From an uncultured Gemmatimonadota bacterium (GTDB lineage Bacteria; Gemmatimonadota; Gemmatimonadetes; Gemmatimonadales; Gemmatimonadaceae): a DNA stretch of 64,000 nt. The stretch spans positions 310,001 through 374,000 of the forward strand of contig CADEFN010000006.1 of the NCBI GenBank assembly GCA_902826615.1, in the 5' to 3' direction. Both the position numbers and the translations under genes were made by a program. Positions 12,991-40,035 of the stretch are shown in pieces (position 1 is the stretch's first letter; each line of letters opens with the position of its first letter). Under the pieces are notes generated by a model. That model searched no databases and had not been told where the DNA came from. It saw nothing but the letters and a program-made list of their open reading frames with translations.

Positions 12991-13278
12991 ATGCATCTGG
13001 CGCGGGTGGTGGGTCGGCTCGTTTCCACGGTCAAACAGGACACCCTGGCGGCCGTGCCGCTGCAGTGGCTGCAACCGCTCTCCGCCGACGGGACGGCCGT
13101 AGGCAAACCGATTGTTGCTGTTGATCGGATTGGGGCCGGGCCCGGCGAAGTGGTCGTGTATGTCACGTCGCGTGAAGCGGCCATCACCCTCGAGGATCCC
13201 TTCGCCGCGGTTGACGCGGGTGTGGTGGCAGTCGTCGACTGGTGTGATGTGGGCGGTCGCAAAACTCTCGAGGCCTGA
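12991..13278 (+). CDS. Microcompartment vertex protein (BMC-P, EutN/CcmL family), copy 1
   Basis: A 95-residue protein matching the EutN/CcmL pentamer that caps the vertices of bacterial microcompartment shells. The family signature is seen in MHLARVVGRLVSTVKQDTL at the N-terminus, then PIVAVDRIGAGPGEVVVYV and a C-terminal VVAVVDWCDV. It follows the rhomboid stop by two bases and overlaps the next gene at TGATG. No hexameric shell gene (BMC-H or BMC-T) occurs in the window, so a complete shell would need genes elsewhere. Confidence 0.88.
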   Translation: MHLARVVGRLVSTVKQDTLAAVPLQWLQPLSADGTAVGKPIVAVDRIGAGPGEVVVYVTSREAAITLEDPFAAVDAGVVAVVDWCDVGGRKTLEA

Positions 13279-13574
13279 TGTTCATTGCCCGTGTGACAGG
13301 CGATGTGGTGGCGACCCATCGGCACGCCGAACTTGGCCGGCACAAATTGCTGCTGATTCGCCGGCTCTCGCTCGAGGGGCGTGAGGAGGGGGCCGAGCTG
13401 ATTGCCGTGGATGTGATTGGCGTTGGTGTGGGGGAACGGGTGCTGGTGGTGCAGGAGGGGAATGCGGCGCGGAGTTTGTTCAAGTTGCCGAAGATTCCGG
13501 CACAGGCGGTGGTAGTGGGGGTGGTGGACCAGGTGGAGATCAACGGAGTGGAGCAGCCGGAGGTGATGTTGTGA
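13278..13574 (+). CDS. Microcompartment vertex protein (BMC-P, EutN/CcmL family), copy 2
   Basis: A 98-residue EutN/CcmL paralogue: MFIARVTGDVVATHRHAELG, KLLLIRRL, LIAVDVIGVGVGERVLVVQEGNAA and VVVGVVDQVEINGV. The GVGVGERVLVVQEGNAAR segment is a very typical pentamer core. It is clearly divergent from copy 1. Several microcompartments use two or three distinct vertex proteins. The gene overlaps its upstream neighbour at TGATG and deoC at GTGA, so the three are translationally coupled. Confidence 0.9.
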   Translation: MFIARVTGDVVATHRHAELGRHKLLLIRRLSLEGREEGAELIAVDVIGVGVGERVLVVQEGNAARSLFKLPKIPAQAVVVGVVDQVEINGVEQPEVML

Positions 13575-14524
13575 GCACGGACCTGCGGGCGCTGGCCCGA
13601 GAGATTGCGAGCGAATTGGCGGCGCGCGATCGCGTGGCGACGCGGGGGGCCCCCCCCGAACAACAAGATCGCTCCACCCCCTCCCACGTGTATCACCATT
13701 CTGTCCCCGATCGTACCAATTCCCCGCAAAGCTCCATCGCGCCCCCCGGCGTACGCTTCGTGCGCAGTGATGCCCGCATGGCCGATTTCATCGACCACAC
13801 CCTGCTCAAGGCCGAGGCGACCCGCGCCGATATCGACAAACTCTGCGAAGAAGCCCGCGAACACCGCTTCGCCGCCGTCTGTGTCAACGGCGTCTGGGTC
13901 GCGACGTGCGCCAGGGCCCTGACCGGAACCGACGTGCAAGTCGCCACCGTGGTCGGCTTCCCGTTAGGCGCCAGTGCACCGGACGCCAAGGCGCAGGAAA
14001 CAGCCCAGGCGGTGCGTGATGGCGCCACCGAAATCGACATGGTGGCCGCCATCGGGCAGGTGAAGAGCGGAGACTGGAACGCCGTCGCCGACGACATCGC
14101 CGCCGTCGTGCGCGCGGCCAGCGGTCGGCTCGTCAAAGTCATCATCGAGTCGGCTGTGCTCACCCCGGTCGAGATCATCAAGGTGTGTGCGATCGCCCGG
14201 GAGATGGGCGCCCACTACGTGAAGACCTCGACCGGTTTCCATGCCGCCGGTGGCGCCACCGCCGAGGCCGTGGCCCTGATGCGAATGGTCGTCGGCGACG
14301 CGCTCGGCGTGAAAGCGTCGGGCGGTGTGCGCGACTGCGAAGCCGCACTCCGGATGATCGCCAATGGCGCCACACGAATTGGCACGTCCAGCGGGGTGTC
14401 GATGGCCAAGTGTCTGGGACCGGGGCCCCTGCCGCTCAACGACCTGCTCTCCCTGGCCACCGGGCACGTCGGCACCTGCCACACCTGCTCATCGGGCGGG
14501 TCGTCTGTGCCCGGGTCATACTAA
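13571..14524 (+). CDS. deoC: Deoxyribose-phosphate aldolase with N-terminal encapsulation-peptide-like helix
   Basis: A 317-residue class I aldolase that splits 2-deoxyribose-5-phosphate into glyceraldehyde-3-phosphate and acetaldehyde. The catalytic core (70-317) has the Schiff-base lysine K218 in VKTSTGF, K248 in VKASGG and D156 in EIDMVAAIG. Ahead of it is a 69-residue extension absent from ordinary DeoC. Its first part, LRALAREIASELAARD (5-20), is an amphipathic helix like those that target enzymes into microcompartments, and a Pro/Ser-rich linker follows. Acetaldehyde is a volatile, toxic product of the sort microcompartments retain. Start is GTG, overlapping the vertex-protein stop. The linker codons contain a G6C8 tract (13644-13657), and an in-frame ATG at 13778 marks where ordinary DeoC begins. 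Confidence 0.95.
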   Translation: MSTDLRALAREIASELAARDRVATRGAPPEQQDRSTPSHVYHHSVPDRTNSPQSSIAPPGVRFVRSDARMADFIDHTLLKAEATRADIDKLCEEAREHRFAAVCVNGVWVATCARALTGTDVQVATVVGFPLGASAPDAKAQETAQAVRDGATEIDMVAAIGQVKSGDWNAVADDIAAVVRAASGRLVKVIIESAVLTPVEIIKVCAIAREMGAHYVKTSTGFHAAGGATAEAVALMRMVVGDALGVKASGGVRDCEAALRMIANGATRIGTSSGVSMAKCLGPGPLPLNDLLSLATGHVGTCHTCSSGGSSVPGSY

Positions 14525-14640: not shown

Positions 14641-15258
14641 GTGGCTTTCCGACTGATCCCCCGCGACGAGGGCTTTTTCGACCTGTTCAACGAGCTGGCC
14701 AAACGGCTCGTCACCTCGTCCGGTCTGCTCCGCGACCTCTTCGCCAATCCCGACCGCCTCGAGGAACTGGCGGCTGCCATCAAGGAAGTGGAGCACGAAG
14801 CGGATCACATCACGCACGACGTGAGTACCCGCCTCGATAGCTCCTTCATCACACCGCTGGATCGAGAGGACATTCACAAGCTCGCCCAGGAACTCGACAA
14901 CGTCGTCGACCTGATCAACGGCACGGCACGGCGGGCGACCATGTTTCACATCACCGAAACGCGTGAGCCCGCCCGCAAGCTCTGCGAAATTGTCGTGCAG
15001 CAGGTGAAACATCTCGAGCGTGCGGTGACGCAGATCCGTGATCCGCGCGCCGTGGCCCTCGCGACCCGCGAGGTGAAGGCCCTCGAACAACAGGGCGACG
15101 CGATCTATCACGATGCCATGGGGGCGCTCTTTCTTGGCAAGCCCGACCCACTCGACGTGATGAAGTGGAAGGAGATCTACGACACGATCGAAAACACGCT
15201 CGATGTCTGCCAGACGGTGGCGATTGTGCTCGAGAGTATTTCGCTCAAGAACTCCTGA
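14641..15258 (+). CDS. DUF47 family PhoU-like phosphate transport accessory protein
   Basis: A 205-residue all-helical cytoplasmic protein of the DUF47/YkaA family, structurally related to PhoU. Recognisable parts are FFDLFNELAKRL, the metal-binding-type helix IKEVEHEADHITHDV (about 61-75) and FITPLDREDIHKLAQELDNV. Such proteins are encoded next to low-affinity Pit phosphate transporters and are thought to control them. Here pit starts 15 bp downstream. Start is GTG, without a clear ribosome binding site. Confidence 0.92.
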   Translation: MAFRLIPRDEGFFDLFNELAKRLVTSSGLLRDLFANPDRLEELAAAIKEVEHEADHITHDVSTRLDSSFITPLDREDIHKLAQELDNVVDLINGTARRATMFHITETREPARKLCEIVVQQVKHLERAVTQIRDPRAVALATREVKALEQQGDAIYHDAMGALFLGKPDPLDVMKWKEIYDTIENTLDVCQTVAIVLESISLKNS

Positions 15259-15273
15259 CGGCGAGCGACGACC

Positions 15274-16308
15274 TTGGTTACGTACGTTATCGCGATTGTC
15301 CTCGTCGCGTTCGTCTTCGATTTCATCAACGGCTTCCACGATTCCGCCAACTCCATTGCGACGGTAGTCGGGACGCGTGTGCTCAGCCCGCTGACGGCGG
15401 TGGTGTGGGCGGCCTTCTTCAACTTCGTGGCGGCGTTCACGGTTGGGACGGCGGTCGCCAAGACGGTCGGGAAGGGAATGATCGAAGTCTCGGTCGTGAC
15501 GCCTAACGTCATTCTGGCCGGTCTGCTGGGCGCGATTGTCTGGAACCTGATCACCTGGTGGTATGGGCTGCCCAGCAGTTCCTCGCACGCCCTGCTGGGC
15601 GGGTATGCCGGTGCGGCGGTGGCCAAAGCGGGTTTCGCCGCCATCATTCTCGCCGGCTGGACCAAGACCATCATCTTCATTTTCCTGTCCCCCATCATCG
15701 GCATGGCGGCGGGGTTCCTGTTGATGACCGCGATCTACTGGATCTTCCGGCGGGCGTCGCCGCGGCGGGTGGATACCCTGTTCCGCCGGCTGCAACTCTT
15801 CAGTGCCGCGCTGTTTTCTCTGTCACACGGGGCAAACGATGCGCAGAAAACGATGGGGATCATCGTTGGCCTGCTGGTCGCATCTCAGGGGGTGTTTGCC
15901 GGACAGACCGGCTGGATGAGCGCCTTCTATGTCCCAAACGGTGACACCATTCCGCTCTGGGTGGAGATGGGCGCCTACACGGCCATCGCGTTAGGCACCC
16001 TGTTTGGTGGGTGGCGGATTGTGCATACCATGGGGAGTCGGATCACCAAGTTGCGCCCCGTTGGTGGGTGTGCGGCGGAGACCGCCGGCGCCTTTGCCAT
16101 TCTGCTCGCCACCCGGTTCGGCATTCCGGTGAGCACGACGCACACCATCACCGGCGCGATCATGGGGGTGGGGTCCACGACACGACTCTCGGCCGTGCGC
16201 TGGGGCGTTGCCGGCCGCATTGTCTGGGCCTGGATCATGACCATCCCTGCCGCCTCGGCCATTTCCGCGTTGTGCTTGTGGCTGCTTGAAGCAGCCGTCA
16301 AGCCCTGA
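15274..16308 (+). CDS. Low-affinity inorganic phosphate transporter, Pit family
   Basis: A 344-residue inner-membrane transporter (PiT, metal-phosphate:H+ symport in known members). It has the duplicated signature of the family: FDFINGFHDSANSIATVV near the N-terminus and SLSHGANDAQKTMGI in the second half, with about ten membrane helices and a cytoplasmic loop near residue 160. Start is TTG at 15274, 15 bp after the DUF47 gene, indicating one operon. It begins the phosphate island that extends to 45.4 kb. Confidence 0.95.
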   Translation: MVTYVIAIVLVAFVFDFINGFHDSANSIATVVGTRVLSPLTAVVWAAFFNFVAAFTVGTAVAKTVGKGMIEVSVVTPNVILAGLLGAIVWNLITWWYGLPSSSSHALLGGYAGAAVAKAGFAAIILAGWTKTIIFIFLSPIIGMAAGFLLMTAIYWIFRRASPRRVDTLFRRLQLFSAALFSLSHGANDAQKTMGIIVGLLVASQGVFAGQTGWMSAFYVPNGDTIPLWVEMGAYTAIALGTLFGGWRIVHTMGSRITKLRPVGGCAAETAGAFAILLATRFGIPVSTTHTITGAIMGVGSTTRLSAVRWGVAGRIVWAWIMTIPAASAISALCLWLLEAAVKP

Positions 16309-16320
16309 ACGCACATCGCT

Positions 16321-16351
16321 CTGTAACGGCGAGTGTAACGGTTGGCTCAGG
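16321..16351. promoter_or_regulatory. Repeat element shared with the pstS promoter
   Basis: TGTAACGG occurs twice (16322 and 16334, 12 bp apart), followed by TTGGCTCAG. Read on the minus strand this gives CTGAGCCAACCGTTAC then CCGTTACA, nearly identical to CTGAGCCAACTGTGAC then CCGTTACA in front of pstS (31987-32012). It lies just after pit and 65 bp before the small gene at 16416. It is probably a site for the same regulator, perhaps PhoB, although the 12-bp spacing differs from the usual 11. Confidence 0.45.
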
Positions 16352-16415: not shown

Positions 16416-16691
16416 GTGTCGTCCGTCATTCGGTTTCTGGATCGTAGTGGTTTTTCCTGGTCAGTGTTTGAACTTCGCGCCGGTAACTCGGCCGACCCGG
16501 AGAATTCCCTCTACTTCCTCTCGCGCGGGAGCACGCTGCGGCTTCACAGCTATCCGGACGACTGGCCGGAGCTCGACTGGGCCGGCCTGGACCGTTTGCG
16601 GCTGACAGCCGACGTGATCTCGGACGATGTCACGCGGCACGCGACGCCGCGGCGCCGGACACCCCAGCTCGATTCTGCTACAGCGCTGTAG
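16416..16691 (+). CDS. Small hypothetical protein
   Basis: A 91-residue reading frame starting at GTG (16416). The sequence SWSVFELRAGNSADPENSLYFLSRG then RLHSYPDDWPELDWAGLDRLR has an ordinary soluble-protein composition with aromatic and acidic residues, unlike the Arg/Ser/Pro-rich shadow frames nearby. No family is recognised. It overlaps the convergent glycosyltransferase gene by 14 bp. The pst-like repeat element lies upstream, so phosphate control is possible. Confidence 0.55.
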   Translation: MSSVIRFLDRSGFSWSVFELRAGNSADPENSLYFLSRGSTLRLHSYPDDWPELDWAGLDRLRLTADVISDDVTRHATPRRRTPQLDSATAL

Positions 16692-17880
16692 CTCGCTCTT
16701 CGGCGCGTGCGCCGAGGAGACGCCGGTACCGGGCGTCGAGCCGGTCGAGTTCAGCACTCCAGGTGAGCCGATTTGCGGTCGCGCGGGCTCCGGCGCTGAG
16801 TGAGACCCTGAGCTGCGAGTCACGGGCCACCGTGACGAGATGCGCCGCCATCGCCGGGACGTCGTCGGCAGGGTAGGCCAGCCCGTTTTCCTGATGTCGC
16901 AGATGATCGGCGACACCGCCGGCAGGGGCGGCCACCACTGGGAGCCCGCTGGCCATTGCCTCGAGAACCACGAGGCCGAGGGTTTCGGTCGTCGAGGCAA
17001 AGACAAATGCGTCGCAGCTGGCGTAGAGCTGCGGGAGCACCGTGGCCCGATCGAGGTTGGCAAGGAAGGTGACATCGTCGCCGCCAAGGGCACGCAGCGA
17101 TGGCTCACTGGGCCCGCTCCCCGCAATGACGAGGTGCATCGGGAGCTGCGGCGCGGTGTCTCTGGCCAGTCGGAAGGCGCGGAGCACCCGGTCGATCCCT
17201 TTTTCGGGGGCCATGCGTCCGACGTGGAGGAAGATGCAGGCGTCGCTTCCGCCATACAGGGTGCGCAGTGTGTCGTTGCGATGCCCGGGGTGAAAGAGCG
17301 TGGTGTCCACCCCGCAGCCCCACACCTCGGCGTGATGAATGCCCATGTCGATGAGGTCCTGCCGTGCCGGAATTGACGGGGTGAACGTCACGGCTGCCTG
17401 ACGATGGAAACGCGTGATGTGACGCGTGACGGCCGGGCGGGCAAAGCGGAGCCCATAGGCGTCGGTGTACCGGGCGAAGTCCGTGTGGTACGAGGTGGTG
17501 ATGGGCACTCCGATGCTGCGTGCGGCCCGCAAGCCCGCGGCGCCGAGGACAAACTCGGTGGCGCAGTGGATCACGTCGGGTTTGAAGGAGGCGCAGGTGC
17601 GGCGAATGGCCGAGGTGCCGGGCCAGGTCAGCCGCAGATCGGCGTACCCCGGGAGGGGCATGCTGGGCACCGCGGCGCCCGCGCGGAGTGCCGCATACGC
17701 CGGGTCGCGATGAAAGGGATCGTTGGTCAGCGCCGGGTAGCGGGGGGAGACCACGGCACACTCCCAGCCCCGGTCGGTGAGGCCGCTCACACTGAGGGCG
17801 GTGACCACCGACACCCCATTCACCTGGGGCGGGAAGGTATCGGTGCAGAACAGGATGCGGGGGCGCGTCTCGTCAGGCAT
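16678..17880 (-). CDS. Glycosyltransferase, GT4 family (MgtA/SqdX-like)
   Basis: A 400-residue GT-B enzyme. The N-terminus RILFCTDTFPPQVNGVSVV matches the subgroup that includes GDP-mannose-dependent MgtA and the sulfolipid glycosyltransferase SqdX. The donor-binding half has LHVGRMAPEKGIDRVL and the E-x7-E motif region FASTTETLGLVVLEAMASGLPVV. Such enzymes glycosylate membrane lipids such as diacylglycerol. Divergent from a phosphatase / PAP2 / glycosyltransferase operon and next to phosphate-uptake genes, it may help make glycolipids, perhaps under phosphate limitation. The 17.9 kb repeat array lies 20 bp upstream of the start. Sugar donor and acceptor are not determinable. Confidence 0.88.
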   Translation of the reverse strand: MPDETRPRILFCTDTFPPQVNGVSVVTALSVSGLTDRGWECAVVSPRYPALTNDPFHRDPAYAALRAGAAVPSMPLPGYADLRLTWPGTSAIRRTCASFKPDVIHCATEFVLGAAGLRAARSIGVPITTSYHTDFARYTDAYGLRFARPAVTRHITRFHRQAAVTFTPSIPARQDLIDMGIHHAEVWGCGVDTTLFHPGHRNDTLRTLYGGSDACIFLHVGRMAPEKGIDRVLRAFRLARDTAPQLPMHLVIAGSGPSEPSLRALGGDDVTFLANLDRATVLPQLYASCDAFVFASTTETLGLVVLEAMASGLPVVAAPAGGVADHLRHQENGLAYPADDVPAMAAHLVTVARDSQLRVSLSAGARATANRLTWSAELDRLDARYRRLLGARAEERATAL

Positions 17881-17900
17881 AACGAGAGCCTAACGTGAGT

Positions 17901-17969
17901 GCGGTGCGTCACGGGATGATGAGCGGTGTGTCACGAGGTGATGACGGTGCCTGACGAGTGGTGTTACGC
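17901..17969. repeat. Tandem 22-bp (2 x 11) repeats in a divergent promoter
   Basis: Two adjacent 22-bp units (17901-17922 and 17923-17944) differ at only three positions, and a partial third unit continues to about 17969. On the minus strand the heptamers CGTCATC, CGTGACA, GCTCATC and CGTGACG recur every 11 bp. This resembles the direct-repeat layout of PhoB-type sites (consensus half-site TGTCAT/TGTCAC). The array lies between the divergent glycosyltransferase and phosphodiesterase genes and could control both. Confidence 0.5.
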
Positions 17970-18046
17970 TCCCGCGACCGAAGTGTCGCCAGCTCTTCAA
18001 GTGTGGGGGCGATTCTTCGATCCGATACCAGACTCCGGAGACTCCG

Positions 18047-18904
18047 ATGGACCAGATCCAGCGGGTAATGGTGGTGGTGATCGACGGGGTGCGCGCCGAT
18101 GCGCTGCCGCTGTTTCGCCTGCCGCGGCTGCAGCAGCTGGCGGCACGCGGCGCCAGCACCTTGCACGCAACAACCGTGACCCCGAGTGTGACCGCCGCTG
18201 CCATGGGGTCGCTCTTTTCGGGACTCACCCCCGACGCGCACGGGCTCGATTCGGACCGCTTCCGTCTCCCGCGGCCGCGGGTGCCGCTGGAACCGTTGCC
18301 ACGGGTGCTGCGCAACGCCGGGGTGCCGATGTTCTGTTTCCTTGCGGCACTGCCCCGCGCCTATCGACCACTCGCGCGGCGACTGGCCGGCATGATCGGT
18401 GTTGAAGACGCCACCTTTCACGGGCAGAACTCCACCGAGATCCTCGCGGCGGCGACTCCGGTGCTGCGGTCCCGGCGGCGTGGCGCCTTCGTCTTCCACT
18501 TCCCTGATGCCGACCGGGCCGGGCATGCCTCGGGCTGGATGTCGCGACCCTACCGTGCGGCAGCCGAACGGCTCGATGAAACCGTCGGGGTGCTCGACGA
18601 CATCACGGGTGCCTCCCGGGACGACGAGACGCTCCTGATCATCCTCGCCGACCACGGTGGCGGCGGGACCAACCCGCGGAACCACGACAGCAGCCATCCG
18701 CACGACCGCCGGATTCCGCTGATCATCTGCGGTGGCCAGGTGGCGCCGGGTGCGTTAGGCCCCGGGGCCTCATTACTTGATGTTCCGGCGACGGTGCTGT
18801 CGGCATTTGGAGTGCACCAGCCGGCGCGATGGGCGGGCCGGTCATTGCTGGATGAGGTACGGCGGCTGCCGCAGCGCGTCGCGGTACCGGGAGGGGCCGC
18901 ATGA
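18047..18904 (+). CDS. Alkaline phosphatase superfamily protein (phosphodiesterase/nucleotide pyrophosphatase-like)
   Basis: A 285-residue metallo-hydrolase of the type I phosphodiesterase/nucleotide pyrophosphatase group. Metal-site motifs are VVVIDGVRAD (9-18), the nucleophile segment TVTPSVTAAAMGSLFSG (43-59, nucleophile probably Thr43 or Ser47), HFPDADRAGH and LADHGGGG. No signal peptide is seen, so it may be cytoplasmic. GGAG precedes the ATG by nine bases. It overlaps the PAP2 gene at ATGA and starts a five-gene operon running to 22610. In this setting it may hydrolyse a phospholipid or a lipid-linked phosphodiester, which is an inference. Confidence 0.85.
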   Translation: MDQIQRVMVVVIDGVRADALPLFRLPRLQQLAARGASTLHATTVTPSVTAAAMGSLFSGLTPDAHGLDSDRFRLPRPRVPLEPLPRVLRNAGVPMFCFLAALPRAYRPLARRLAGMIGVEDATFHGQNSTEILAAATPVLRSRRRGAFVFHFPDADRAGHASGWMSRPYRAAAERLDETVGVLDDITGASRDDETLLIILADHGGGGTNPRNHDSSHPHDRRIPLIICGGQVAPGALGPGASLLDVPATVLSAFGVHQPARWAGRSLLDEVRRLPQRVAVPGGAA

Positions 18905-19428
18905 CCGGACCGATGATCTGGCTCTCCCACATCGACGCCGGCGATCGCGCCCTCTTCTCGCGCTGGTGTCTCGGGGAGTCATCCGCTCGATGGTCTCGGG
19001 CCGCGTGGCATCTCCTGACCAACCTTGGCGGCGCCTCCGTCACCATTGCTGCCTGCCTGCTTCCAATGATTGCGGGCACCGGCGCCTGGCGCATGGCCGG
19101 CAGTGGTGCCCTCACGGTGCTCGTGGCGTCGCACCTCGTTGTCCAACTGGTCAAGCGCACCGTGGGCCGTCCACGGCCGTCACGTGGCATGAGCGGGGCG
19201 GCCCTCATTGCCGAGCCCGATCGCTTCTCCTTTCCCTCCGGCCACTCGGCGGCGGCGCTGTCGATTGCCATCGGGTATGGCGTGGCGTTCCCTGCCACCG
19301 CCCCGGCGTTAGGCGTGCTGGCGGTTCTGGTGGGCTTTTCGCGCGTGGCCCTGGGCGTGCACTACCCGGGTGATGTGCTCGCGGGACAGCTGCTTGCCAT
19401 GGCAGGCGCCACCCTGCTCCTGCCATGA
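18901..19428 (+). CDS. PAP2 superfamily membrane phosphatase
   Basis: A 175-residue membrane phosphatase with the three PAP2 motifs: KRTVGRPRPSR (about 83-93), FPSGHSAAALS (about 110-120) and SRVALGVHYPGDVLAG (about 142-157), with His as catalytic nucleophile. Family members dephosphorylate phosphatidate, phosphatidylglycerophosphate or undecaprenyl pyrophosphate. Flanked by glycosyltransferases, it could supply diacylglycerol for glycolipid synthesis or recycle a lipid carrier. ATGA overlaps join it to both neighbours. Confidence 0.93.
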   Translation: MTGPMIWLSHIDAGDRALFSRWCLGESSARWSRAAWHLLTNLGGASVTIAACLLPMIAGTGAWRMAGSGALTVLVASHLVVQLVKRTVGRPRPSRGMSGAALIAEPDRFSFPSGHSAAALSIAIGYGVAFPATAPALGVLAVLVGFSRVALGVHYPGDVLAGQLLAMAGATLLLP

Positions 19429-20705
19429 ACCCTTTGATGACCGCGAGCGATGTCGTGCGGCACCCGATGCGACTCGCCGAGTCGCACCGGCTCGACCTCT
19501 CGGTGGCACCACTGCCCCCGGTGACTCGCCCGCGCGCCGACGTCGCGGTCCTCGACATCACCAAATGGTTTGGCGAGACGAGTGGTGGGGTAAAGACGTA
19601 CCTCACGGAAAAGATGCGCTTTGTCGAAGCGGATCAGAGCTTGCGACAGGTGCTCGTGATCCCCGGCGCGTACGATGCCGCCGGGTCGGGAGATGGGGTC
19701 ACCACCTATCGGCTGAGAGGACCGCGGATTCCCACGCAGACCGCGTATCGCTTTCTCCTCGCCCCTCGCACCACCCGTCGTCTCATTCGTCATGAGCGGC
19801 CCGATGTGATCGAAGTGGGGAGCCCATTGCTGGTGCCCTGGGTCACGCGGATCGCCGCACGCGGGCTCGGGATTCCGCTGGTGTCGTTTTATCACACCAG
19901 TCTCCCTGGCGCAGTCGCAAGCCTGGGACTGCCGGGTCGCGGTCCCCTGTGGCGTTCACTGGTGGGTGCTTATGCGCGGCAGCTCGACGGGCTGTTCAGC
20001 CAGACGATCGTCGCATCGGAGTCGGCGGCGCGCGAACTTGCCTCGATGGGGGTCGATCGCACGACCCGCATCCCGTTAGGCGTGGATCTCGACCGGTTTT
20101 ATCCGGCGCGGAAAGCCTTGCGTGAGGCAACCCTTCGCCGACTCGGCCTGCCCACGGATCGCCCGATCGGGGTGTACATCGGGCGGCTGGCACCAGAGAA
20201 GCGCATCGAGGTGTTGCTCGACGCGTGGGTGAATGTGGAACGGGCCTGTGGCGCGCATCTGGTCGTGGCGGGATCCGGAGCAAGCGAAGCGCTGCTCAAG
20301 GCGCGCTGCATTGCCCGTAATGTCACGTGGCTGCCGTACCAGCACGATCGCGAAATGGTCGCCCGTCTCCACGCTGCCGCCGACGTTTTCGTCGCGCCTG
20401 GTGATGTGGAGACGTTCGGGCTCGCCGCGCTGGAGGCGCTGGCGTCGGGGACCCCGGTGGTCTCGTCAGCGGCGGGCGCCGTGGCGGAGCTGGTGCAGGC
20501 GTCGGGCGCCGGAGAAGTCTTTGCGCCGGGGGATGCCGCCGATTGTGCGCGTGCCATCCGGCGCACCCTCGACGGCGACCAGCCTACGCTGCGGTTGCGG
20601 GCACGGGTTTACGCCGAGCGTGAGCACGACTGGCGGCATGTCTTTCAGCGGGTGTTCAACCTCTATCGGACGGTGATACATGCGGGTTCTGGTCTCCATC
20701 CATGA
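19425..20705 (+). CDS. Glycosyltransferase, GT4 family
   Basis: A 426-residue GT-B glycosyltransferase. The acceptor half contains DITKWFGETSGGVKTYLTEK (about 43-62) and LVSFYHTSLPG. The donor half contains GVYIGRLAPEKRIEVLLDAW and APGDVETFGLAALEALASGTP, the E-x7-E donor-phosphate motif. An N-terminal extension of about 38 residues before the Rossmann fold is not typical, and an internal start is possible. It overlaps PAP2 at ATGA, and its 3' end overlaps the next gene by 26 bp. It probably glycosylates the same lipid or polymer as the other two enzymes here. Confidence 0.9.
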   Translation: MNPLMTASDVVRHPMRLAESHRLDLSVAPLPPVTRPRADVAVLDITKWFGETSGGVKTYLTEKMRFVEADQSLRQVLVIPGAYDAAGSGDGVTTYRLRGPRIPTQTAYRFLLAPRTTRRLIRHERPDVIEVGSPLLVPWVTRIAARGLGIPLVSFYHTSLPGAVASLGLPGRGPLWRSLVGAYARQLDGLFSQTIVASESAARELASMGVDRTTRIPLGVDLDRFYPARKALREATLRRLGLPTDRPIGVYIGRLAPEKRIEVLLDAWVNVERACGAHLVVAGSGASEALLKARCIARNVTWLPYQHDREMVARLHAAADVFVAPGDVETFGLAALEALASGTPVVSSAAGAVAELVQASGAGEVFAPGDAADCARAIRRTLDGDQPTLRLRARVYAEREHDWRHVFQRVFNLYRTVIHAGSGLHP

Positions 20706-21423
20706 CGTGGCGCCGCCCTTTGCGGCGGAAGTGGAGTCGCTCTGGCAGTTGTGCCAGGAGTACGACGTGCAGGCCGGGCTGCTGGTGGTGCCGGACTGGC
20801 ATGGTGGCGCGCCACTGCGTGAAGCGCCCACCTTCACCGCGTGGGTGCGCGCCCGCGCCGCCGAGGGGGCAGACATCCTGCTGCATGGCGAGCGGCACGA
20901 CGAGGTGAACCTGCCGCGCTCGCCCATGGATCACATGCGGGCGGTGGGGCGGACCGATGGGGAAGGGGAGTTTCTCACGTTAGGCACCCGGGAGGCGCTG
21001 CTGCGGATGCAGCGTGGGGTGCGCACACTCACCAACCACGGAATGCCGCCGATCGGGTTTGTCCCGCCGGCGTGGCTGGCTCGTCCCGGGCTGGCGCGTG
21101 TGGTACGGCTGGCGGGTCTCCTGGTCACGGAGGACGCGGCGCGGGTGTGGCTCCCTCGGCGCGGGCTGGCGATCACCTCACCAGTGGTGCGCTGGAGCGC
21201 GCGCACCACGTGGCGGGCCGGGCTGAGCCGGGTGGTGGCGCGCACCCGATCGGCCTGGGAGTCACGGAGTGGCCTGGTGCGGGTGGCACTGCATCCCGCC
21301 GACCTGCGACACCCCTGGACCATGGACTCCTTGCGCCGGACGCTGGACCGCGAGTGTACCCGGCGGCGTCCGGTAACCTACAGCGAGCTTGCCGTTCAGG
21401 ACGATGTGGGGTACGCCGCATGA
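20680..21423 (+). CDS. DUF2334 polysaccharide-deacetylase-like protein
   Basis: A 247-residue protein of the DUF2334 branch of NodB-like deacetylases. VLVSIHDVAPPF (3-14) holds the Asp of the metal site, ILLHGERHDE (about 67-76) the H-x3-H-type ligands, and VALHPADLRHPW (about 206-217) the C-terminal His motif. The family is expected to remove acyl groups from sugars in glycans or glycolipids. The 26-bp overlap with the upstream glycosyltransferase and ATGA overlap with the next one show it belongs to the operon. No signal peptide is evident. Confidence 0.85.
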   Translation: MRVLVSIHDVAPPFAAEVESLWQLCQEYDVQAGLLVVPDWHGGAPLREAPTFTAWVRARAAEGADILLHGERHDEVNLPRSPMDHMRAVGRTDGEGEFLTLGTREALLRMQRGVRTLTNHGMPPIGFVPPAWLARPGLARVVRLAGLLVTEDAARVWLPRRGLAITSPVVRWSARTTWRAGLSRVVARTRSAWESRSGLVRVALHPADLRHPWTMDSLRRTLDRECTRRRPVTYSELAVQDDVGYAA

Positions 21424-22610
21424 GTGCCCCGGTGATGCTCGACGGATTGCGGGTGGCGATCGCCACCGATACGTGGGATCCACAGCTCAATGGGGTGACA
21501 CGAACCTTGCGCCGCCTGGCCGACGAGGCCCGTCAGCGGGGCGCTGACGTGCGGGTGTATGCGCCAGATGCCCCCGGCGCACTACAGTCGCACGGGGTGC
21601 GACGGTATCCGTCGGTGCCATTCTGGGGGTACCCCGAGCTGCGACTCTCCTGGCCAGGCGCGGCGGCTCTCCGCGACGAGTGGAAGGAGTGGCGACCCGG
21701 ATTGGTGCACGCGGCGACCCCCTTTGGCATCGGGCTCGCTGCACGCAGCGCCGCTCGCTCCCTGGCGCTGCCCTTTGCCACCTCGTATCACACGTCGCTC
21801 AGTCAGTATGCGGCATTTTACGGTTTGGGATGGGCCAGCAAGCCGGGATGGTCGTTCCTGCGCCACTTTCACAACAGCGGGAGCAGGACATGGTGCCCCA
21901 CCCGGGCGGTGGCTGCCGAACTGGAGTCGTACGCGTTTACCGGCACCGCGGTATGGGGGCGTGGGGTTGACGCCACCGCCTTCTCTCCTGCCTGGCGATC
22001 CATGGAGTACCGCCGCTCGTTTGGTATTCGTGATGACGAGTTCCTCCTTTTGTATGTAGGTCGGCTCGCGAAGGAAAAGGGACTTGATCGGCTCCTCGCT
22101 GCCGCGCGGCAGCTCGAACGCTCGGGACAGGGTGTGCGGCTGATGCTCGTTGGAGACGGCCCATACGAGGCCGCATGTCGCGAGGGTGCTCCGGCGGGCA
22201 CCATTTTTACGGGCACACTCTCGGGGCACGAACTCTCGACCGCCTTTGCGTCGGGGGACCTGTTTGTCTTCCCGTCGACCACCGACACCTTCGGCAATGT
22301 GCTGCTGGAAGCCATGGCGAGCGGAGTGCCGGTGCTGGCCGCCGATTGTGCGGTGGCGCGCGAGCGTGTGAGCGAGGGGCGAGGCCGGGTCTTTGACGCC
22401 AAGTCAACGACCGCGCTGGCGGACAAGCTGCGTTCGGTCATGGCGGCGCCCGAGGCATTGCTGCTGATGCGGGAACGCGCCCTTGCCCACGCTGAGGAGT
22501 GCACCTGGCCACGTGTTTTTGACGCCCTCTTCACGGACTACCTTGCCGTGGTCGGCGCGAAAGCCGAACGGCAAAGGGGAGAGCGAGCATCAGCACCGTT
22601 GGCGGCGTAA
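21420..22610 (+). CDS. Glycosyltransferase, GT4 family (MgtA/SqdX-like), last gene of the operon
   Basis: A 396-residue GT-B enzyme, close in pattern to the glycosyltransferase encoded at 16678-17880: RVAIATDTWDPQLNGVTRTL, LPFATSYHTSLSQYAAFYGL, LYVGRLAKEKGLDRLL and FPSTTDTFGNVLLEAMASGVP. The frame stays open far upstream (to 20841), but that part is out of frame with the deacetylase gene and has shadow composition. ATG at 21420 overlaps the preceding stop (ATGA) and gives the family N-terminus. Two MgtA/SqdX-like enzymes flanking PAP2 and a phosphodiesterase suggest a glycolipid pathway. Confidence 0.9.
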   Translation: MSAPVMLDGLRVAIATDTWDPQLNGVTRTLRRLADEARQRGADVRVYAPDAPGALQSHGVRRYPSVPFWGYPELRLSWPGAAALRDEWKEWRPGLVHAATPFGIGLAARSAARSLALPFATSYHTSLSQYAAFYGLGWASKPGWSFLRHFHNSGSRTWCPTRAVAAELESYAFTGTAVWGRGVDATAFSPAWRSMEYRRSFGIRDDEFLLLYVGRLAKEKGLDRLLAAARQLERSGQGVRLMLVGDGPYEAACREGAPAGTIFTGTLSGHELSTAFASGDLFVFPSTTDTFGNVLLEAMASGVPVLAADCAVARERVSEGRGRVFDAKSTTALADKLRSVMAAPEALLLMRERALAHAEECTWPRVFDALFTDYLAVVGAKAERQRGERASAPLAA

Positions 22611-22687: not shown

Positions 22688-22738
22688 GTCTGTAGAATTC
22701 GACGCTGCGGCCCTTTCCGTGTGCGTCCACCACAGGCA

Positions 22739-24955
22739 ATGACAGACACCGTTTCCGCCCTCCTGCCAACCCAGCTGATCAACCGAGAGCTGAGCTGGCT
22801 GGCGTTCAACGCGCGAGTGCTCCACGAGGCAGTGGACGAGCGAACTCCTCTGCTCGAGCGGCTGAAGTTCCTCGCGATTTTCACCAGCAATCTGGACGAG
22901 TTCTTTCAGGTTCGTGTCGCGGGACTTCGCCGTCAGGTCGCCGCCGGAGTCGCGACGCCAACGGCAGACGGCATGTCGCCGATGGCGCAGCTCGATGCCA
23001 TCGACGCCCGCGTGCGGGAACTGGTGCGGGAGCAGCTGCGGTGTCTGCATCACGACGTGCTCCCGGGCCTCGCGGCGCACGGGGTGAAGCTGGTGGCCAT
23101 GAACGATCTCACTGCCGACGAACGACTCACGGTCGATGAGTTCTTCGAGCACGAGGTCTTCCCGGTCCTGACGCCACTGGCGGTGGATCCGGGGCATCCC
23201 TTTCCCTACATCTCCAACCTCTCGCTGTCACTGGCAGTGGAGGTGCGCGATCCCGGCCGCAGTGCGGAGCTCTTTGCCCGCGTGAAGGTGCCGCGGAGCC
23301 TGCCGCGCTGGGTGCCACTCGCGCGCCCAAACCATTTTGTGCCGCTCGAAGCAGTCATCGGGGCCCACCTGCGGTCGCTCTTTCCGGGGATGGAGGTTGT
23401 GGGGTGGCATGGGTTCAAGATCACGCGGTACTCCGATCTCGATGTCCCGGCCGCCGACGAACCCGAAGATCTGCTGGCCAGTATCGAAGAGCAGGTCTTC
23501 CAGCAGCGATTTGGCGAAGTCGTGCGACTCGAAGTGCAGCAGGGGATGCCGGCGCATATCCGGCACCTGCTGCTGGATGAACTCCGGGCCGCCGCTGAAC
23601 CGGACGTACTGCCGCTGAGTGAACGTGACGTGCACGAAGTGGGCACACTCGTGGAGTTGTCGGACCTGATGTCGCTGGCCACCATCGATGTCCCGCAGCT
23701 GCGCGACACACCCTACGCTCCGCTGGTGCCACCCGAGTTGCGCGATCCCGAACGGACGATCTTTGACGTGATTCGGGAGCGCGATGTGCTGGTGCACCAC
23801 CCCTTTGAATCGTTTGCTTATAGTGTGGAGCGCTTCTTCGAAGCGGCGGCGGTCGACGAACACGTGCTGGCGCTCAAAACCACGCTGTATCGCACATCGG
23901 GTGACACCGCCATCGTGCGGGCCCTCACCGAAGCGGCACAAAGCGGAAAGCAGGTGGCCGTGCTGGTCGAGCTCCAGGCGCGCGGGGATGAAGCCAACAA
24001 CATTGCCTGGGCGCGGACACTGGAAAACTTCGGCGTGCACGTGGCGTACGGGCTCCCCGGGCTCAAGACACACGCCAAGATCGCCCTCATCGTGCGGCGC
24101 GACCCCGATGGCATCCGCCGCTACGTCCACATCGGCACGGGCAACTACAACTCGAAAACCGCCCGCGTGTACACGGATATCGGGTTGTTCACCATCAATC
24201 CCGAGATTGCCGCCGACATCAGCGATGTGTTCAACCTGCTGACCGGCTTCTCTCGGCAGCGTGACTACCGCAAGCTGCTGGTGGCGCCCGCGAGCATGAA
24301 GACGCGCTTTCTGGCGCTCATCGCCCGTGAGGCGGCCAATGCACGGGCGGGGCATCCAGCGCGGATCATCGCCAAGATGAACGCCATCGTTGATCCGGAC
24401 ATGATCGCCGCGCTCTACGAGGCCTCACGCGCCGGGGTGGAGATCGACCTGATTGTGCGCGGCATCTGCTGTCTGCGTCCCGGTCTGCCCGGGGTGAGCG
24501 ACCGGATCCGGGTGCGCAGTATCATCGGCCGTTTTCTCGAGCACTCCCGCATCATCTATTTTGCCAACGGCGGCCACGAGAACTACTTCATCGGGTCGGC
24601 CGACTGGATGCCCCGCAATCTCGAACGACGCGTGGAAGTCCTGACACCAGTCGACGACCCATCGCAGCAGGTGCGCCTGCGCGCGCTGCTCGACACTTGT
24701 CTCGACGACAACCGGCAGGCCTGGGAACTGCAATCCGACGGAACCTACCGGCAGGTGAGCCCCGACGGCGCCACGGAACTGGCGACGCACAAGAAGTTGC
24801 TGCGTGATCCGTGGGGGCTCGACCGGTCGCAGTCTCGTTATGCGACGGCGGAAATGCGCGCCATGACGCTGGAAGAGTACGACACCGTCACCAGCAATGG
24901 CCATCTCCGCGAGGAGCAGCCGGCCAAACGCACCCGCCGAAAAAAGAAGGCCTGA
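22739..24955 (+). CDS. ppk1: Polyphosphate kinase 1
   Basis: A 738-residue enzyme that polymerises the terminal phosphate of ATP into polyphosphate, reversibly. The N-domain starts INRELSWLAFNARVLHEA and FTSNLDEFFQVRVAGL. The catalytic domains carry HIGTGNYNSKTARVYTD, with the histidine that becomes phosphorylated, and LEHSRIIYFANGG with the second conserved His. The C-terminus ends in a Lys/Arg tail (KRTRRKKKA). ATG at 22739 fits the family start, and an in-frame GTG at 22721 is an alternative. It is convergent with ppx, so synthesis and breakdown of polyphosphate are encoded side by side. Confidence 0.97.
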   Translation: MTDTVSALLPTQLINRELSWLAFNARVLHEAVDERTPLLERLKFLAIFTSNLDEFFQVRVAGLRRQVAAGVATPTADGMSPMAQLDAIDARVRELVREQLRCLHHDVLPGLAAHGVKLVAMNDLTADERLTVDEFFEHEVFPVLTPLAVDPGHPFPYISNLSLSLAVEVRDPGRSAELFARVKVPRSLPRWVPLARPNHFVPLEAVIGAHLRSLFPGMEVVGWHGFKITRYSDLDVPAADEPEDLLASIEEQVFQQRFGEVVRLEVQQGMPAHIRHLLLDELRAAAEPDVLPLSERDVHEVGTLVELSDLMSLATIDVPQLRDTPYAPLVPPELRDPERTIFDVIRERDVLVHHPFESFAYSVERFFEAAAVDEHVLALKTTLYRTSGDTAIVRALTEAAQSGKQVAVLVELQARGDEANNIAWARTLENFGVHVAYGLPGLKTHAKIALIVRRDPDGIRRYVHIGTGNYNSKTARVYTDIGLFTINPEIAADISDVFNLLTGFSRQRDYRKLLVAPASMKTRFLALIAREAANARAGHPARIIAKMNAIVDPDMIAALYEASRAGVEIDLIVRGICCLRPGLPGVSDRIRVRSIIGRFLEHSRIIYFANGGHENYFIGSADWMPRNLERRVEVLTPVDDPSQQVRLRALLDTCLDDNRQAWELQSDGTYRQVSPDGATELATHKKLLRDPWGLDRSQSRYATAEMRAMTLEEYDTVTSNGHLREEQPAKRTRRKKKA

Positions 24956-24960
24956 ACAGA

Positions 24961-24976
24961 ACGCGCCGAGGCGCGT
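24961..24976. terminator. Short palindrome between ppk and ppx
   Basis: ACGCGCC-GA-GGCGCGT is a 7-bp perfect inverted repeat in the 20-bp gap between the two convergent genes. It could serve as a compact bidirectional hairpin, but there is no T-run on either side. Confidence 0.3.
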
Positions 24977-26604
24977 CAGCGATCGGCGCCCACCAGCCCG
25001 TCGGGTCCGGCGATTTCCACGGGAATGCCGACCAGCCGCTCGAGCAGTTGCGCCTTGCGGCTGGCGCCCCAGAGTTCGAGCCGTAGCACACCCGCGCGGG
25101 CATCGGGCAGAGCGGTGATCCGCAAGGCGCGTTCGCCCCAGCGCACCCGGAGCTGCGCGACGGCACTCACATGTCCGCGGTCGAAACCATCGGCCACCCG
25201 GAGAATGCCACTCAGAATTTCGACCCGCCGCCGCGACTCGGTGTCGAGTGCACCAAAGCTGGTGTGTTTGGCCTTGGGTTCACTGCCCCGATGATACCGC
25301 GCGACATTGGCCACCAGCACCTGCTCCTCCGGCGACACGCCTAACAAGTCGGCGTGGAGGATGAGGTGAAAGGAGTGTTTGTGGTGCTGGTCGTAGTTGA
25401 TGTGGTAGCCCACATCGTGCAGCAGCGCGGCGTCGGCGAGAATCTCGCGATCGGTCGACGTGCACCCCATCCGCGTCCCGACCGCGTCAAAGAGCTGCAG
25501 CGCCAATCGTTGCACCTGCCGGGCATGCGGCGCTTCGTAGTGACAGCGTTCGGCGAGGGTGAGCACGGAACGTTCGCGCGCCGCGCCAGGGTCGGCGGGC
25601 GTGGCCTGGATGCGGGCACTCTCCAGCAGCAGCCCCTCGCGGATGCCATACCCCGACACTACCAGGTCGCGGGCCTCAATGCGCGCCATCACCTCAGCGG
25701 CCACGCAGAGACCCCCGAGAATGATGTCGGAGCGGCCGGCATTGAGCCCGCGAATGGCGGCGCGTTCGTCCGGCGACGAGGTTTGCAGCAGGTCGATCAG
25801 ATGCTCCACCTCCTCACGCGGGACTCGGGCGCCATGCACACGACCCGCCGCACTCGAGTGGCCACGCCGATAAAGATACATCCCGGCCAGGTTGGTGAAG
25901 GTGCCACCGGAGCAGATGAGCTGCGACCGACGCCAGTCCTTGAGGGGCAGAGCCTTGCGAATGTCACCACGGACAAACTTTCGCAAGCTCCTCACGTCCT
26001 TGCGCGAAGGACGGCTGCCGAGAAACTGCTCGGTCATCCGGATGGCGCCAAAGGGGAAGGAGGCCAGCCGGTCGATGAGGCCGTCGGCGCTGGTCACGAG
26101 TTCGAGCGACCCACCGCCGATGTCCATCACCACCGCACGTGACTTGGCGAGGTCGAAGTGAGCGAGGGCACTGCGAAAGGCCAGACGCGCTTCGTCTTCG
26201 CCTTGCAGCACACGCACCCGCAGCCCGCACTCACGCCGGATGAGATCGAGAAAGCCCTTGCCGTTGGCGGCGTCACGCACCGCACTGGTGGCTACCGCCT
26301 CGACCCGTTCGGCGCCCGATTGCCGAGCAAGGGTGGTCATGCGGTGCAACGCATCGATGGCCTCCTGAATGGAGGACTCACTCATGATGCCCTGCATGTC
26401 CACGCCGGAGCCCAGACGTGGGGCAGCCTTCATTTCGTCGACGATACGGATGCGCCCGTCCGCCGAGACATCGGCCACGATCTGCCGGATCGAGTTTGAC
26501 CCGATATCGATGGCGGCGAGGCGCACACCAGCGCGCGCCCCGCCCTTGGCCGGCGCCGCCCTACGCGGGCGCGTCGGCTCTCCGTTCCGCTCCACCTTGT
26601 TCAT
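24976..26604 (-). CDS. ppx: Exopolyphosphatase / guanosine pentaphosphatase (Ppx/GppA) with HD domain
   Basis: An actin-fold phosphatase of about 542 residues that releases phosphate from polyphosphate ends or from pppGpp. LAAIDIGSNSIRQIVADV is the first phosphate loop, VVMDIGGGSLELV the second, and LICSGGTFTNLAGM the third. A C-terminal HD-type region (ADAALLHDVGYHINYDQHHKHS then ARYHRGSE) completes the four-domain form. The start is uncertain. ATG 26604 overlaps phoU by 44 bp, an upstream ATG at 26682 overlaps it more, and GTG 26526 would avoid overlap and start just before the conserved domain. It is the last gene of the pst operon. Confidence 0.93.
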   Translation of the reverse strand: MNKVERNGEPTRPRRAAPAKGGARAGVRLAAIDIGSNSIRQIVADVSADGRIRIVDEMKAAPRLGSGVDMQGIMSESSIQEAIDALHRMTTLARQSGAERVEAVATSAVRDAANGKGFLDLIRRECGLRVRVLQGEDEARLAFRSALAHFDLAKSRAVVMDIGGGSLELVTSADGLIDRLASFPFGAIRMTEQFLGSRPSRKDVRSLRKFVRGDIRKALPLKDWRRSQLICSGGTFTNLAGMYLYRRGHSSAAGRVHGARVPREEVEHLIDLLQTSSPDERAAIRGLNAGRSDIILGGLCVAAEVMARIEARDLVVSGYGIREGLLLESARIQATPADPGAARERSVLTLAERCHYEAPHARQVQRLALQLFDAVGTRMGCTSTDREILADAALLHDVGYHINYDQHHKHSFHLILHADLLGVSPEEQVLVANVARYHRGSEPKAKHTSFGALDTESRRRVEILSGILRVADGFDRGHVSAVAQLRVRWGERALRITALPDARAGVLRLELWGASRKAQLLERLVGIPVEIAGPDGLVGADR

Positions 26605-27289
26605 CGGGGGCGAACTCGAAACGGTGTTTGATCGACTTCCCTTCCGCGAGGAAGACGGCGTCTTCGCCGATGTTCGTGGCAAGGTCGGCTACGCGCTCAA
26701 GGTTGCGGCTCACCAGCAGGAGTTCCAGCGACGGGTTGATGGTCCGGGCATCCGCCATCATATGGGTCAAGAGAATGCGGAAGACGGAATCGTGCAAGGC
26801 GTCAACCTGATCGTCGGCTCGGCACACGGCGCGCCCAAGCTGACCATCGGCGCGGATGAAGGCGTCGAGCGAGTCGGAGAGCATGCGGCGCGCTCGGCGG
26901 GCCATGTCCTCGATTTCGGGATCGGGGATGACGGCGGCGCGAATGGCAATAAGACGCAAGGCACTCTGCGCGATGTTCACCGCATGATCGCCCACGCGCT
27001 CGAGATCGCTGGAGACCTTGATGGCCGCGACGAGAAACCGAAGGTCACGCGCCATCGGCTGCTGCAACGCCAGGAGCTCGATGGCAAGGGCCTCGACCTC
27101 GACCTCGAGGAGATCGACTTCCCGATCACCACGAATGACGGCGTCGGCCTTGTCCTTGTCTCGACTGATCAGGGCCTCGACGGAAAGTTCGACGAGTTCC
27201 TCTGACCGAGCGGACATGTCGAGCAGCTTCTGCTTGAGGGCCGAAAGCTGATCGTGAAAGTGACGAAACCCGCTATCGGATGGGCTCAT
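26561..27289 (-). CDS. phoU: Phosphate signalling protein PhoU
   Basis: A 242-residue protein made of two PhoU helical bundles. Each has the E/D-x3-D metal motif: DRVEV-like [20 protein letters not shown] with [15 protein letters not shown], and [12 protein letters not shown] with [17 protein letters not shown]. PhoU links Pst transport to the PhoR/PhoB pair and keeps the Pho regulon off when phosphate is plentiful. ATG at 27289 overlaps the pstB2 stop (ATGA), and GGGGAG lies six bases upstream. An upstream extension of the open frame lacks the family sequence. The C-terminal end is acidic. Confidence 0.96.
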
Positions 27290-28104
27290 CCAAATCTCCC
27301 CGTGATATAAGCCTCGGTGCGTTCTTCGCGAGGGCTGGTGAACATGCTTTGTGTGGCGTCGACTTCGATGAGACGTCCCATGTAGAAAAACGCCGTCCGG
27401 TCGGACACACGCGCAGCCTGCTGCAGGTTGTGGGTGACGATGACGATCGTGATCTCCGACTTCAACTCGTACAGTAACTCTTCGATCTTCTGCGTGGCGA
27501 TGGGATCGAGCGCCGAGCATGGCTCGTCGAGGAGCAGCACTTCCGGCTGGTTGGCGAGTGCGCGGGCAATGCAGAGGCGCTGCTGCTGCCCGCCAGACAA
27601 ACCGAGCGCTGAGTCCCGGAGCCGGTCCTTGACCTCGTCCCACAGGGCCGCGCGACGCAGCGAGGACTCCACGGCGGCATCAAGTTCCTGCCGCGACCCG
27701 GTCCCGTTGATGCGCGGACCATAGGCCACGTTGTCGTACACCGAACGAGGAAAGGGATTCCAGCGTTGAAAAACCATCCCGATCCGCTGACGCAACTGCA
27801 CGACGTCCATCGAGGTGCCGTTCACATCCTCGCCGTCGAGCCGAATGGCGCCTTCGTGCCGCGTATCGGGGATGAGCGCATTCATCCGGTTGATCGAGCG
27901 CAAGAAAGTGGACTTGCCGCATCCCGACGGGCCGATGAATGCCGTGACCGACCGCGCCGGGATCTGCAGACTCACCTGATGCAGCGCCTGCTTGGCTCCA
28001 TACCAGAACGAGTAGTCGGCCGCCTCGATCGAACCGAGGGCGCCCACCGTGTCCTGCGATGGCGTACGATCGGCGGTGCTCAGCCGTGGAGCAGGGACGG
28101 TCAT
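27286..28104 (-). CDS. pstB: Phosphate ABC transporter ATP-binding protein PstB, second copy
   Basis: A 272-residue ABC ATPase energising high-affinity phosphate uptake. Walker [10 protein letters not shown], the Q-loop region [20 protein letters not shown], signature [16 protein letters not shown] and Walker [14 protein letters not shown] are intact. The N-terminus has an extra 25 residues before the conserved domain. It directly follows another complete pstB, overlapping it by four bases at ATGA, which is uncommon. The YGPRINGTG region follows the usual PstB form more closely than in the first copy. Confidence 0.96.
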
Positions 28105-28943: not shown

Positions 28944-28967
28944 GAGGGACTCCTGGCGACGTCCCGG

Positions 28968-40000: not shown

Positions 40001-40035
40001 CAGGCCCACCCTCGCGTTGCACATTCTGCGGTCTG

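Follow-up and report, generated by a model that had tools for sequence, protein, structure and literature searches.

A cluster of six genes in a 64,000-nt stretch of contig CADEFN010000006.1, from an uncultured Gemmatimonadota bacterium, is read here, with somewhat more confidence than doubt, as a unit for membrane-lipid remodelling under phosphate-starvation (Pho) control, in which two gene modules have been joined and for which we infer the reactions and substrates described below. This whole stretch is hereafter called the window, and its numbering is used throughout. The first module comprises a glycosyltransferase of family GT4 (GT-A), a phosphodiesterase (PDE) and a membrane phosphatase (PAP2), and the second, judged from sequence families and gene order, two further GT4 enzymes (GT-B and GT-C) and a DUF2334 protein. 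All six open reading frames (ORFs) are present and coding by score. GT-A is transcribed divergently from the other five genes, which overlap one another by 4, 4, 26 and 4 bp on the plus strand (18047-22610), and the group has pit and its DUF47 partner on one side and ppk on the other. The features of the cluster are as follows.

16678-17880, minus strand: GT-A, GT4 glycosyltransferase of 400 amino acids (GT4 Pfam matches; GT-A clade in the tree)
17881-18046, no strand: divergent control region between GT-A and PDE, with four PhoB-type half-sites on the minus strand in an 11-bp phase
18047-18904, plus strand: PDE, predicted NPP-type phosphodiesterase of the alkaline-phosphatase superfamily, 285 amino acids (PF01663, 74.9 bits, cut-off 23)
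18901-19428, plus strand: PAP2 membrane phosphatase, 175 amino acids (PF01569, 68.0 bits, cut-off 27.2)
19425-20705, plus strand: GT-B, GpgS-like GT4 glycosyltransferase, 426 amino acids (NF053787, 262.9 bits; GT-B clade, support 100/100), with an alternative ATG start at 19437
20680-21423, plus strand: GpgD-like DUF2334 protein, 247 amino acids (PF10096, 84.3 bits, cut-off 26; NF053788, 155.1 bits)
21420-22610, plus strand: GT-C, GT4 glycosyltransferase, 396 amino acids (GT4 Pfam; nests with the gpg-type GT-C)

A preliminary description of this DNA had listed three GT4 genes, a phosphodiesterase, a PAP2 and a DUF2334 gene, five of them overlapping, between pit and ppk, and both the ORFs and Pfam bear this out. 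It had further assigned the whole group to a phosphate-sparing glycolipid pathway. This proposal is supported in part for GT-A, PDE and PAP2, which are linked to Pho genes in the window's own genome and in relatives, and has to be narrowed for GT-B, DUF2334 and GT-C, which appear to form a separate GpgS/GpgD-like module.

The PDE has the threonine nucleophile, the two-metal ligand set and the fold of an NPP-type phosphodiesterase. Thr49, Asp13, Asp156, Asp202, His203 and His217 are kept in all 53 relatives and His160 in 52 of them; we take Thr49 to be the nucleophile and the other conserved residues to be ligands of the two metals. The predicted model (pLDDT 94.3) matches nucleotide pyrophosphatases, the alkaline sphingomyelinase ENPP7 and sulfatases with Z scores of 26-28, and no membrane segment is seen by hydropathy. 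Sulfatases, which belong to the same superfamily, use a cysteine or serine nucleophile that is converted to formylglycine, and this reading of the PDE is disfavoured because threonine occupies the nucleophile position in 53/53. In PAP2 the three phosphatase motifs, presumably Kx6RP, PSGH and SRx5Hx3D, are all found: Lys85-x6-Arg92-Pro93, PSGH at 112-115 and Arg148, His154 and Asp158 are kept in 42 of 42 sequences, and Ser147 in 40.

Relatives were collected as stretches of up to 19 kb around matches of whole-genome searches, together with 79 named loci; the 79-locus and 40-locus sets were pooled, and duplicates were removed on the basis of 8-mers in common between PDE (or DUF2334) sequences. 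Their genes were called with a codon-usage model and labelled by BLAST against the window genes and a few added references, and genes that this caller skips (among them GpgD of L088, GT-A of L243 and PAP2 of L244) were recovered by tblastn. Of 99 genomes, 27, G000 included, have a strong relative of the PDE (E 1e-35 or better) and 17 have one of the DUF2334 protein (E 1e-50 or better). In Gemmatimonadota, GT-A stands no more than two genes from PDE in 40 deduplicated loci, and the grouping with PAP2 is more than chance, because 38 of the 40 also carry PAP2 within two genes. A 130-bit threshold excluded from these counts the PDE relatives beyond this phylum (Verrucomicrobia and others), mostly of 27-31% identity, which have neither GT-A nor PAP2 as a neighbour. 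The whole joined form with both modules recurs in L095, and the parts found in the congeners G003 (L056) and G004 (L057/L096 and L034), which are pieces on short contigs, are consistent with it.

When pst, phoU, phoBR, ppk, ppx, pit, DUF47 and phosphate porin genes were counted within 8 kb of PDE, at least one was present at 15 of the 40 deduplicated GT-A/PDE loci. Among the controls, such genes were found in none of 20 arbitrary 17-kb regions taken from these genomes, in 1 of 15 PDE loci without a near GT-A and in 1 of 15 DUF2334 loci without PDE (Fisher p 0.001 for the comparison with the regions and 0.043 for that with 1/15; the loci share descent). L136 and L139 have the order phoB, phoR, PAP2, GT-A, PDE, a further gene (the phosphate porin gene in L136) and pst, and PAP2, GT-A and PDE also stand by pst and phoBR in L094 and L142. 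Among 12 stretches in which GT-A has no PDE neighbour, five, from five further genomes (L243-L247), have GT-A by phoB, phoR or both and by pst; all five have PAP2 next to GT-A, L244 on the strength of a short match, and none has PDE. PAP2 and GT-A thus seem to be the core of the module and are a candidate for its minimal version, to which PDE would often be added as a feeder. Within the genus Gemmatimonas, PDE is found in 0 of 30 genomes at E 1e-25 and GpgD in 8 of 30, and G026 has GT-A, GT-C, GpgD, GT-B and PAP2 together with no PDE.

The window operon itself lies inside a Pho island of about 25 kb (14.6-39.4 kb) with pit, ppk, ppx, phoU, pst and a phoBR-like pair. It is counted as inside because of the flanking Pho genes, the phoBR-like pair and Pho-box matches at 31988, 33928 and 36837. 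The remaining features of this island are as follows.

14641-15258, plus strand: DUF47/PhoU-like partner of Pit (PF01865, 95.3 bits)
15274-16308, plus strand: phosphate transporter Pit (PF01384, 316.5 bits)
22721-24955, plus strand: polyphosphate kinase Ppk (Pfam)
24976-31914, minus strand: ppx, phoU, pstB, pstB, pstA, pstC and pstS (NCBIfam, position and relatives)
31988-32005, minus strand: Pho box upstream of pstS (scores 19.7 bits with a box trained without it)
36949-38610, minus strand: phoR-like kinase (NCBIfam matches, best first: PnpS, WalK, PhoR, each below its cut-off)
38655-39377, minus strand: phoB-like regulator (best NCBIfam match PhoB, TIGR02154, below cut-off)

PhoU, one PstB and PstS score above their NCBIfam cut-offs and Ppx below; the second PstB, PstA and PstC are assigned from position and from matches in relatives. 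The two proteins of the phoBR-like pair share 75% and 57% identity with their counterparts beside a similar operon in L080, where PAP2, GT-B, DUF2334 and GT-C stand between phoBR and ppx.

A Pho box was learned, unsupervised, from the regions upstream of pstS in 28 relatives, with the window's own genome left out. The learned box, nCGTGACnnnnnCGTTAC, is an 11-bp direct repeat and resembles the published consensus CTGTCATNNNNCTGTCAT, as it is quoted in PMC8528852. Of the 28 pstS upstream regions, 25 score at least 17 bits and three less than 8. After six of the 40 module loci, which have no adjacent divergent gap of 60-600 bp, were left out, 34 gaps between GT-A and PDE could be scored, and the box exceeds 12 bits in 17 of these, compared with 1 of 75 divergent control gaps (strictly intergenic; p 1e-9); the same score is exceeded in 5 of 195 codirectional control gaps. 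A strict Pho pattern has 17 sites in the whole genome of the window, as against 5 for the reversed pattern, and none of them is in the GT-A/PDE gap.

In the pathway proposed here, a cytosolic NPP-type PDE would cleave a membrane phospholipid or CDP-diacylglycerol and most likely yield phosphatidate, which PAP2 would convert to diacylglycerol with release of phosphate; GT-A would attach a sugar to the diacylglycerol. Phosphatidate for PAP2 is the more likely product of the PDE, rather than diacylglycerol directly, because PAP2 and GT-A occur in Pho loci without PDE. As for the second module, GT-B might transfer N-acetylglucosamine to a lipid, the DUF2334 enzyme would deacetylate it to leave a positively charged glucosamine, and GT-C could add a further sugar or make the acceptor. 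The operon of the window would presumably be switched on by PhoB.

The nearest named relatives of the second module are known from Pseudomonas aeruginosa, in which gpgS and gpgD make N-acetylglucosaminyl-phosphatidylglycerol and then glucosaminyl-phosphatidylglycerol, GpgS acting on the lipid phosphatidylglycerol (PMC12713373). The best NCBIfam match of GT-B is NF053787 (N-acetylglucosaminyl-phosphatidylglycerol synthase, GpgS) with 262.9 bits (E 3.6e-78; next best 82), and the DUF2334 protein matches NF053788 (GpgD) only, with 155.1 bits (E 2.1e-45); GT-A and GT-C also match NF053787 best, at 163 and 155 bits. As for gpgS and gpgD, the gene for GT-B (19425-20705) directly precedes that for the DUF2334 protein (20680-21423). 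Since GpgS and GpgD are the nearest named relatives, the product of these genes is probably an amino-sugar lipid, which by analogy would keep its phosphate if it were made on the published substrate of GpgS. A gpgF flippase gene does not adjoin GT-B and DUF2334, where GT-C follows, and three PF03706 matches are found elsewhere in the genome. Among solved structures, GT-A and GT-B have distant GT4 matches only (PimB, PimA, MshA, BshA and a cyanobacterial protein), and the DUF2334 protein has no match at E 0.01.

In a tree of 93 glycosyltransferases, which has long branches for one GT-C row (L124) and one glycosyltransferase row (L131), all 22 GT-B fall in a single clade (support 100/100). A separate clade (98/80) takes in every row labelled GT-A but one, 39 of 40 in all; the row outside, L131_GTA_6308, is a second glycosyltransferase in its locus and has a long branch. 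The GT-C of the window stands inside the type that accompanies GT-B and DUF2334 (99/98), apart from the GT-C that follows PAP2 elsewhere. The first reading of this DNA had likened two of its glycosyltransferases to SqdX and MgtA, which we take to be GT4 enzymes with diacylglycerol-type acceptors; the resemblance of the window enzymes to them is likewise presumed. The L131 locus itself carries GT-A, PDE, PAP2, a further GT4 gene, GT-B and a gene for a GpgF-like flippase, with no DUF2334 match.

The acceptor of GT-B, phosphatidylglycerol after the precedent of GpgS or a hexosyl-diacylglycerol after that of HexSDF, would determine whether the end product is free of phosphorus, and it is here that the main rival for the second module arises. 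In that explanation, a serious contender that falls a little short of an even chance, GT-B, DUF2334 and GT-C are a plain GpgS/GpgD pathway to glucosaminyl-phosphatidylglycerol for surface charge; their place in the Pho island would be incidental, phosphate would be kept, and only the first module, if any, would be phosphate-sparing. The two best matches and the gpgS-gpgD gene order agree with this, as do three relatives with the full gpgS-gpgD-gpgF order (L077, L084 and L091), the Pho linkage of the second module without PDE in only one of 15 loci, and the regions upstream of GT-B in loci without PDE, where the Pho box exceeds 12 bits in 0 of 13. On the other hand, both scores are about half of the curated cut-offs, GT-C occupies the position expected for the flippase gene, and the second module forms one overlapping operon with the Pho-linked one in the window, in L095 and, to the end of the contig, in the congener L056; the place of the L080 operon, between phoBR and ppx, is likewise at odds with an incidental position.

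A glucosaminyl-hexosyl-diacylglycerol made by the logic of HexSDF is a possibility that we hold more tentatively. GT-A or GT-C would make hexosyl-diacylglycerol, GT-B would add N-acetylglucosamine and the DUF2334 enzyme would deacetylate it, yielding a phosphorus-free cationic lipid at low phosphate. HexSDF offers a precedent, as an N-acetylhexose is placed on a glycolipid and then deacetylated (PMC10128005), and lipid-type glycosyltransferases are present in the same operon, with a GT-C type that also accompanies the GT-A/PDE/PAP2 module in relatives. HexS, however, is annotated as a monogalactosyldiacylglycerol synthase and not as a GT4 enzyme, and the enzyme nearest to GT-B in sequence, GpgS, uses phosphatidylglycerol. 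Modification of a surface polysaccharide or lipopolysaccharide, with PAP2 recycling undecaprenyl pyrophosphate and the GT4 enzymes building an oligosaccharide on a carrier lipid, is improbable: GT4 enzymes are common in polysaccharide loci and the best NCBIfam matches of PAP2 are undecaprenyl-diphosphatases, far below cut-off, but the operon has no initiating sugar-phosphate transferase, flippase or polymerase, and the GpgS/GpgD-like pair, the Pho linkage and the Pho boxes speak for another role.

Besides these matches of PAP2, several points weigh against the reading as a Pho-controlled lipid-remodelling cluster. Judged from the model, phospholipase C-like, nucleotidase-like and other activities of the PDE are not told apart by its fold matches. 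The active site of a PAP2 enzyme is usually on the periplasmic side, and since the PDE has no membrane segment by hydropathy, the two steps may take place on opposite faces of the membrane. GT-B and the DUF2334 protein fall below the curated GpgS and GpgD cut-offs (480 and 280), which may reflect distance between phyla rather than function, because L077, with its gpgS-gpgD-gpgF order, scores lower still (239.5 for NF053787 and 143.7 for NF053788). No Pho gene lies within 8 kb at 25 of the 40 module loci, some of which are on contigs of 3-7 kb, and the loci are related by descent, so that their counts are not independent. With the pstS-trained box the GT-A/PDE gap of the window scores no more than 6.7 bits, less than most relatives do, and with a box retrained on the other module gaps 9.8-11.5 bits, a score equalled by 3 of 75 controls. 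Its four half-sites share a single 11-bp phase, a count reached by none of 5000 shuffles, and at least three phased half-sites occur in 16 of 34 module gaps compared with 0 of 75 controls, in a test devised after the window had been seen.

Further genes in and around the island were noted. Between pit and GT-A there is an ORF of 91 amino acids (16416-16691, plus strand) with no Pfam match; counterparts of 82-86 amino acids occupy the same position in L056, L057/L096 and L095, and two TGTAAC repeats, 12 bp apart, lie upstream of it near 16320-16345. Between pstS and phoR are genes for a protein of 574 amino acids with no Pfam match (32094-33818, minus strand) and a TonB-dependent receptor (33954-36734, minus strand). 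Both are preceded by strong Pho boxes (at 33928, 18.9 bits, and at 36837, 16.0 bits, respectively), and these two perhaps serve uptake of phosphate or organophosphate. Two adjacent pstB paralogues (27286-28104 and 28101-28943, minus strand) share one pst operon, a doubling also present in L060 and L092-L094. Beside the island, a protein of 1055 amino acids (40198-43365, plus strand) has two calcineurin-type and two 5'-nucleotidase C-terminal stretches; with the nearby genes for adenosine deaminase (43589-44629) and a uridine-kinase-like protein (39374-40009), it is read as scavenging phosphate from nucleotides. On the other side, two short proteins (12991-13278 and 13278-13574, plus strand) resemble, by eye only, the EutN/CcmL-type vertex proteins of microcompartments; they are directly followed by a deoC-aldolase-like gene (by eye only; 13571-14524, plus strand), and 12991-14524 is a possible small microcompartment locus. 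The dominant polar lipids of Gemmatimonas groenlandica are given as phosphatidylethanolamine, an aminolipid and diphosphatidylglycerol (PMC7844134); the aminolipid was not counted as support for a glucosamine lipid, the single-contig Gemmatimonas genome G099 having no GpgD match.

Genomic and metagenomic surveys of bacterial lipid renovation have used PlcP as their marker (e.g. PMC4796936). If the reading as a Pho-controlled lipid-remodelling cluster is true, a phylum common in soils and lakes uses another hydrolase together with PAP2, and PlcP-based surveys undercount; the join with an aminosugar-lipid module would also tie the sparing of phosphate, within a single operon, to membrane charge and through it to cationic antimicrobials. 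Set against the textbook pathway, the differences would be the non-PlcP first enzyme and the added pair for a positively charged amino-sugar lipid, both in a Pho island. A bolder version, which must be called speculative and rather unlikely, is that Gemmatimonadota have a PlcP-free pathway of their own under PhoB, in which an NPP-fold PDE and PAP2 yield diacylglycerol, and that in this genus a captured GpgS/GpgD-type pair turns it to a phosphorus-free cationic glucosamine glycolipid, possibly a stand-in for phosphatidylethanolamine. A search of the open-access literature, which mostly does not cover subscription journals, found no paper on the GT-A/PDE/PAP2 arrangement, and the available portions of PMC5193443 and PMC12722247 name no PDE/PAP2 unit of such a kind.

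Four known systems can be set beside the cluster. The fold of the PDE is that of ENPP7 (alkaline sphingomyelinase, 5tcd, Z 27.6) and of Xac NPP (2gsn, Z 27.3), with which many other NPPs and sulfatases tie in Z; ENPP7 shows that the NPP fold can cleave the head group of a phospholipid, and the window enzyme differs in being a bacterial protein of 285 amino acids with no membrane segment seen. In hexSDF of Clostridioides difficile, which makes aminohexosyl-hexosyl-diradylglycerol, the order of addition and deacetylation is similar (PMC10128005), whereas the regulator and the phylum are others and GT-B has GT4-type domains with no match to monogalactosyldiacylglycerol synthase in Pfam, so that it is not of the HexS type. 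gpgSDF of P. aeruginosa has in common with the window that a GT4 gene immediately precedes one for a deacetylase, of one family in both, and it is the source of the best NCBIfam matches (PMC12713373); the window pair differs in its scores (262.9 against 480 and 155.1 against 280), in having no gpgF beside it and in being embedded in a Pho-island operon. In the PlcP-Agt pathway of P. aeruginosa (PA3219/PA3218) and SAR11 HTCC7211, a phosphodiester-cleaving enzyme supplies diacylglycerol to a glycosyltransferase under Pho box control (PMC8528852; PMC4796936), and the cluster resembles it as a phosphate-starvation unit of a glycosyltransferase and a proposed phosphodiester-cleaving enzyme, with Pho boxes in relatives. 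PlcP, a calcineurin-like protein (PF00149), is absent from the operon, as the preliminary description had stated, the operon hydrolase being PF01663; elsewhere in the genome PF00149 alone was used as the probe and gave ten matches, three of which are YfcE-like, LpxH-like and YaeI-like (the latter two below cut-off). The window system is thus not a member of the PlcP-Agt type, because its hydrolase comes from another superfamily; the PAP2 partner, the three GT4 enzymes and the added aminosugar pair are further differences. In marine heterotrophs diacylglycerol is likely to come mainly from PlcP, and phosphatidate phosphatases seem to be missing from a number of strains, SAR11 HTCC7211 among them (PMC4796936); in the Gemmatimonadota cluster, unlike these, the phosphatase PAP2 is part of the unit.

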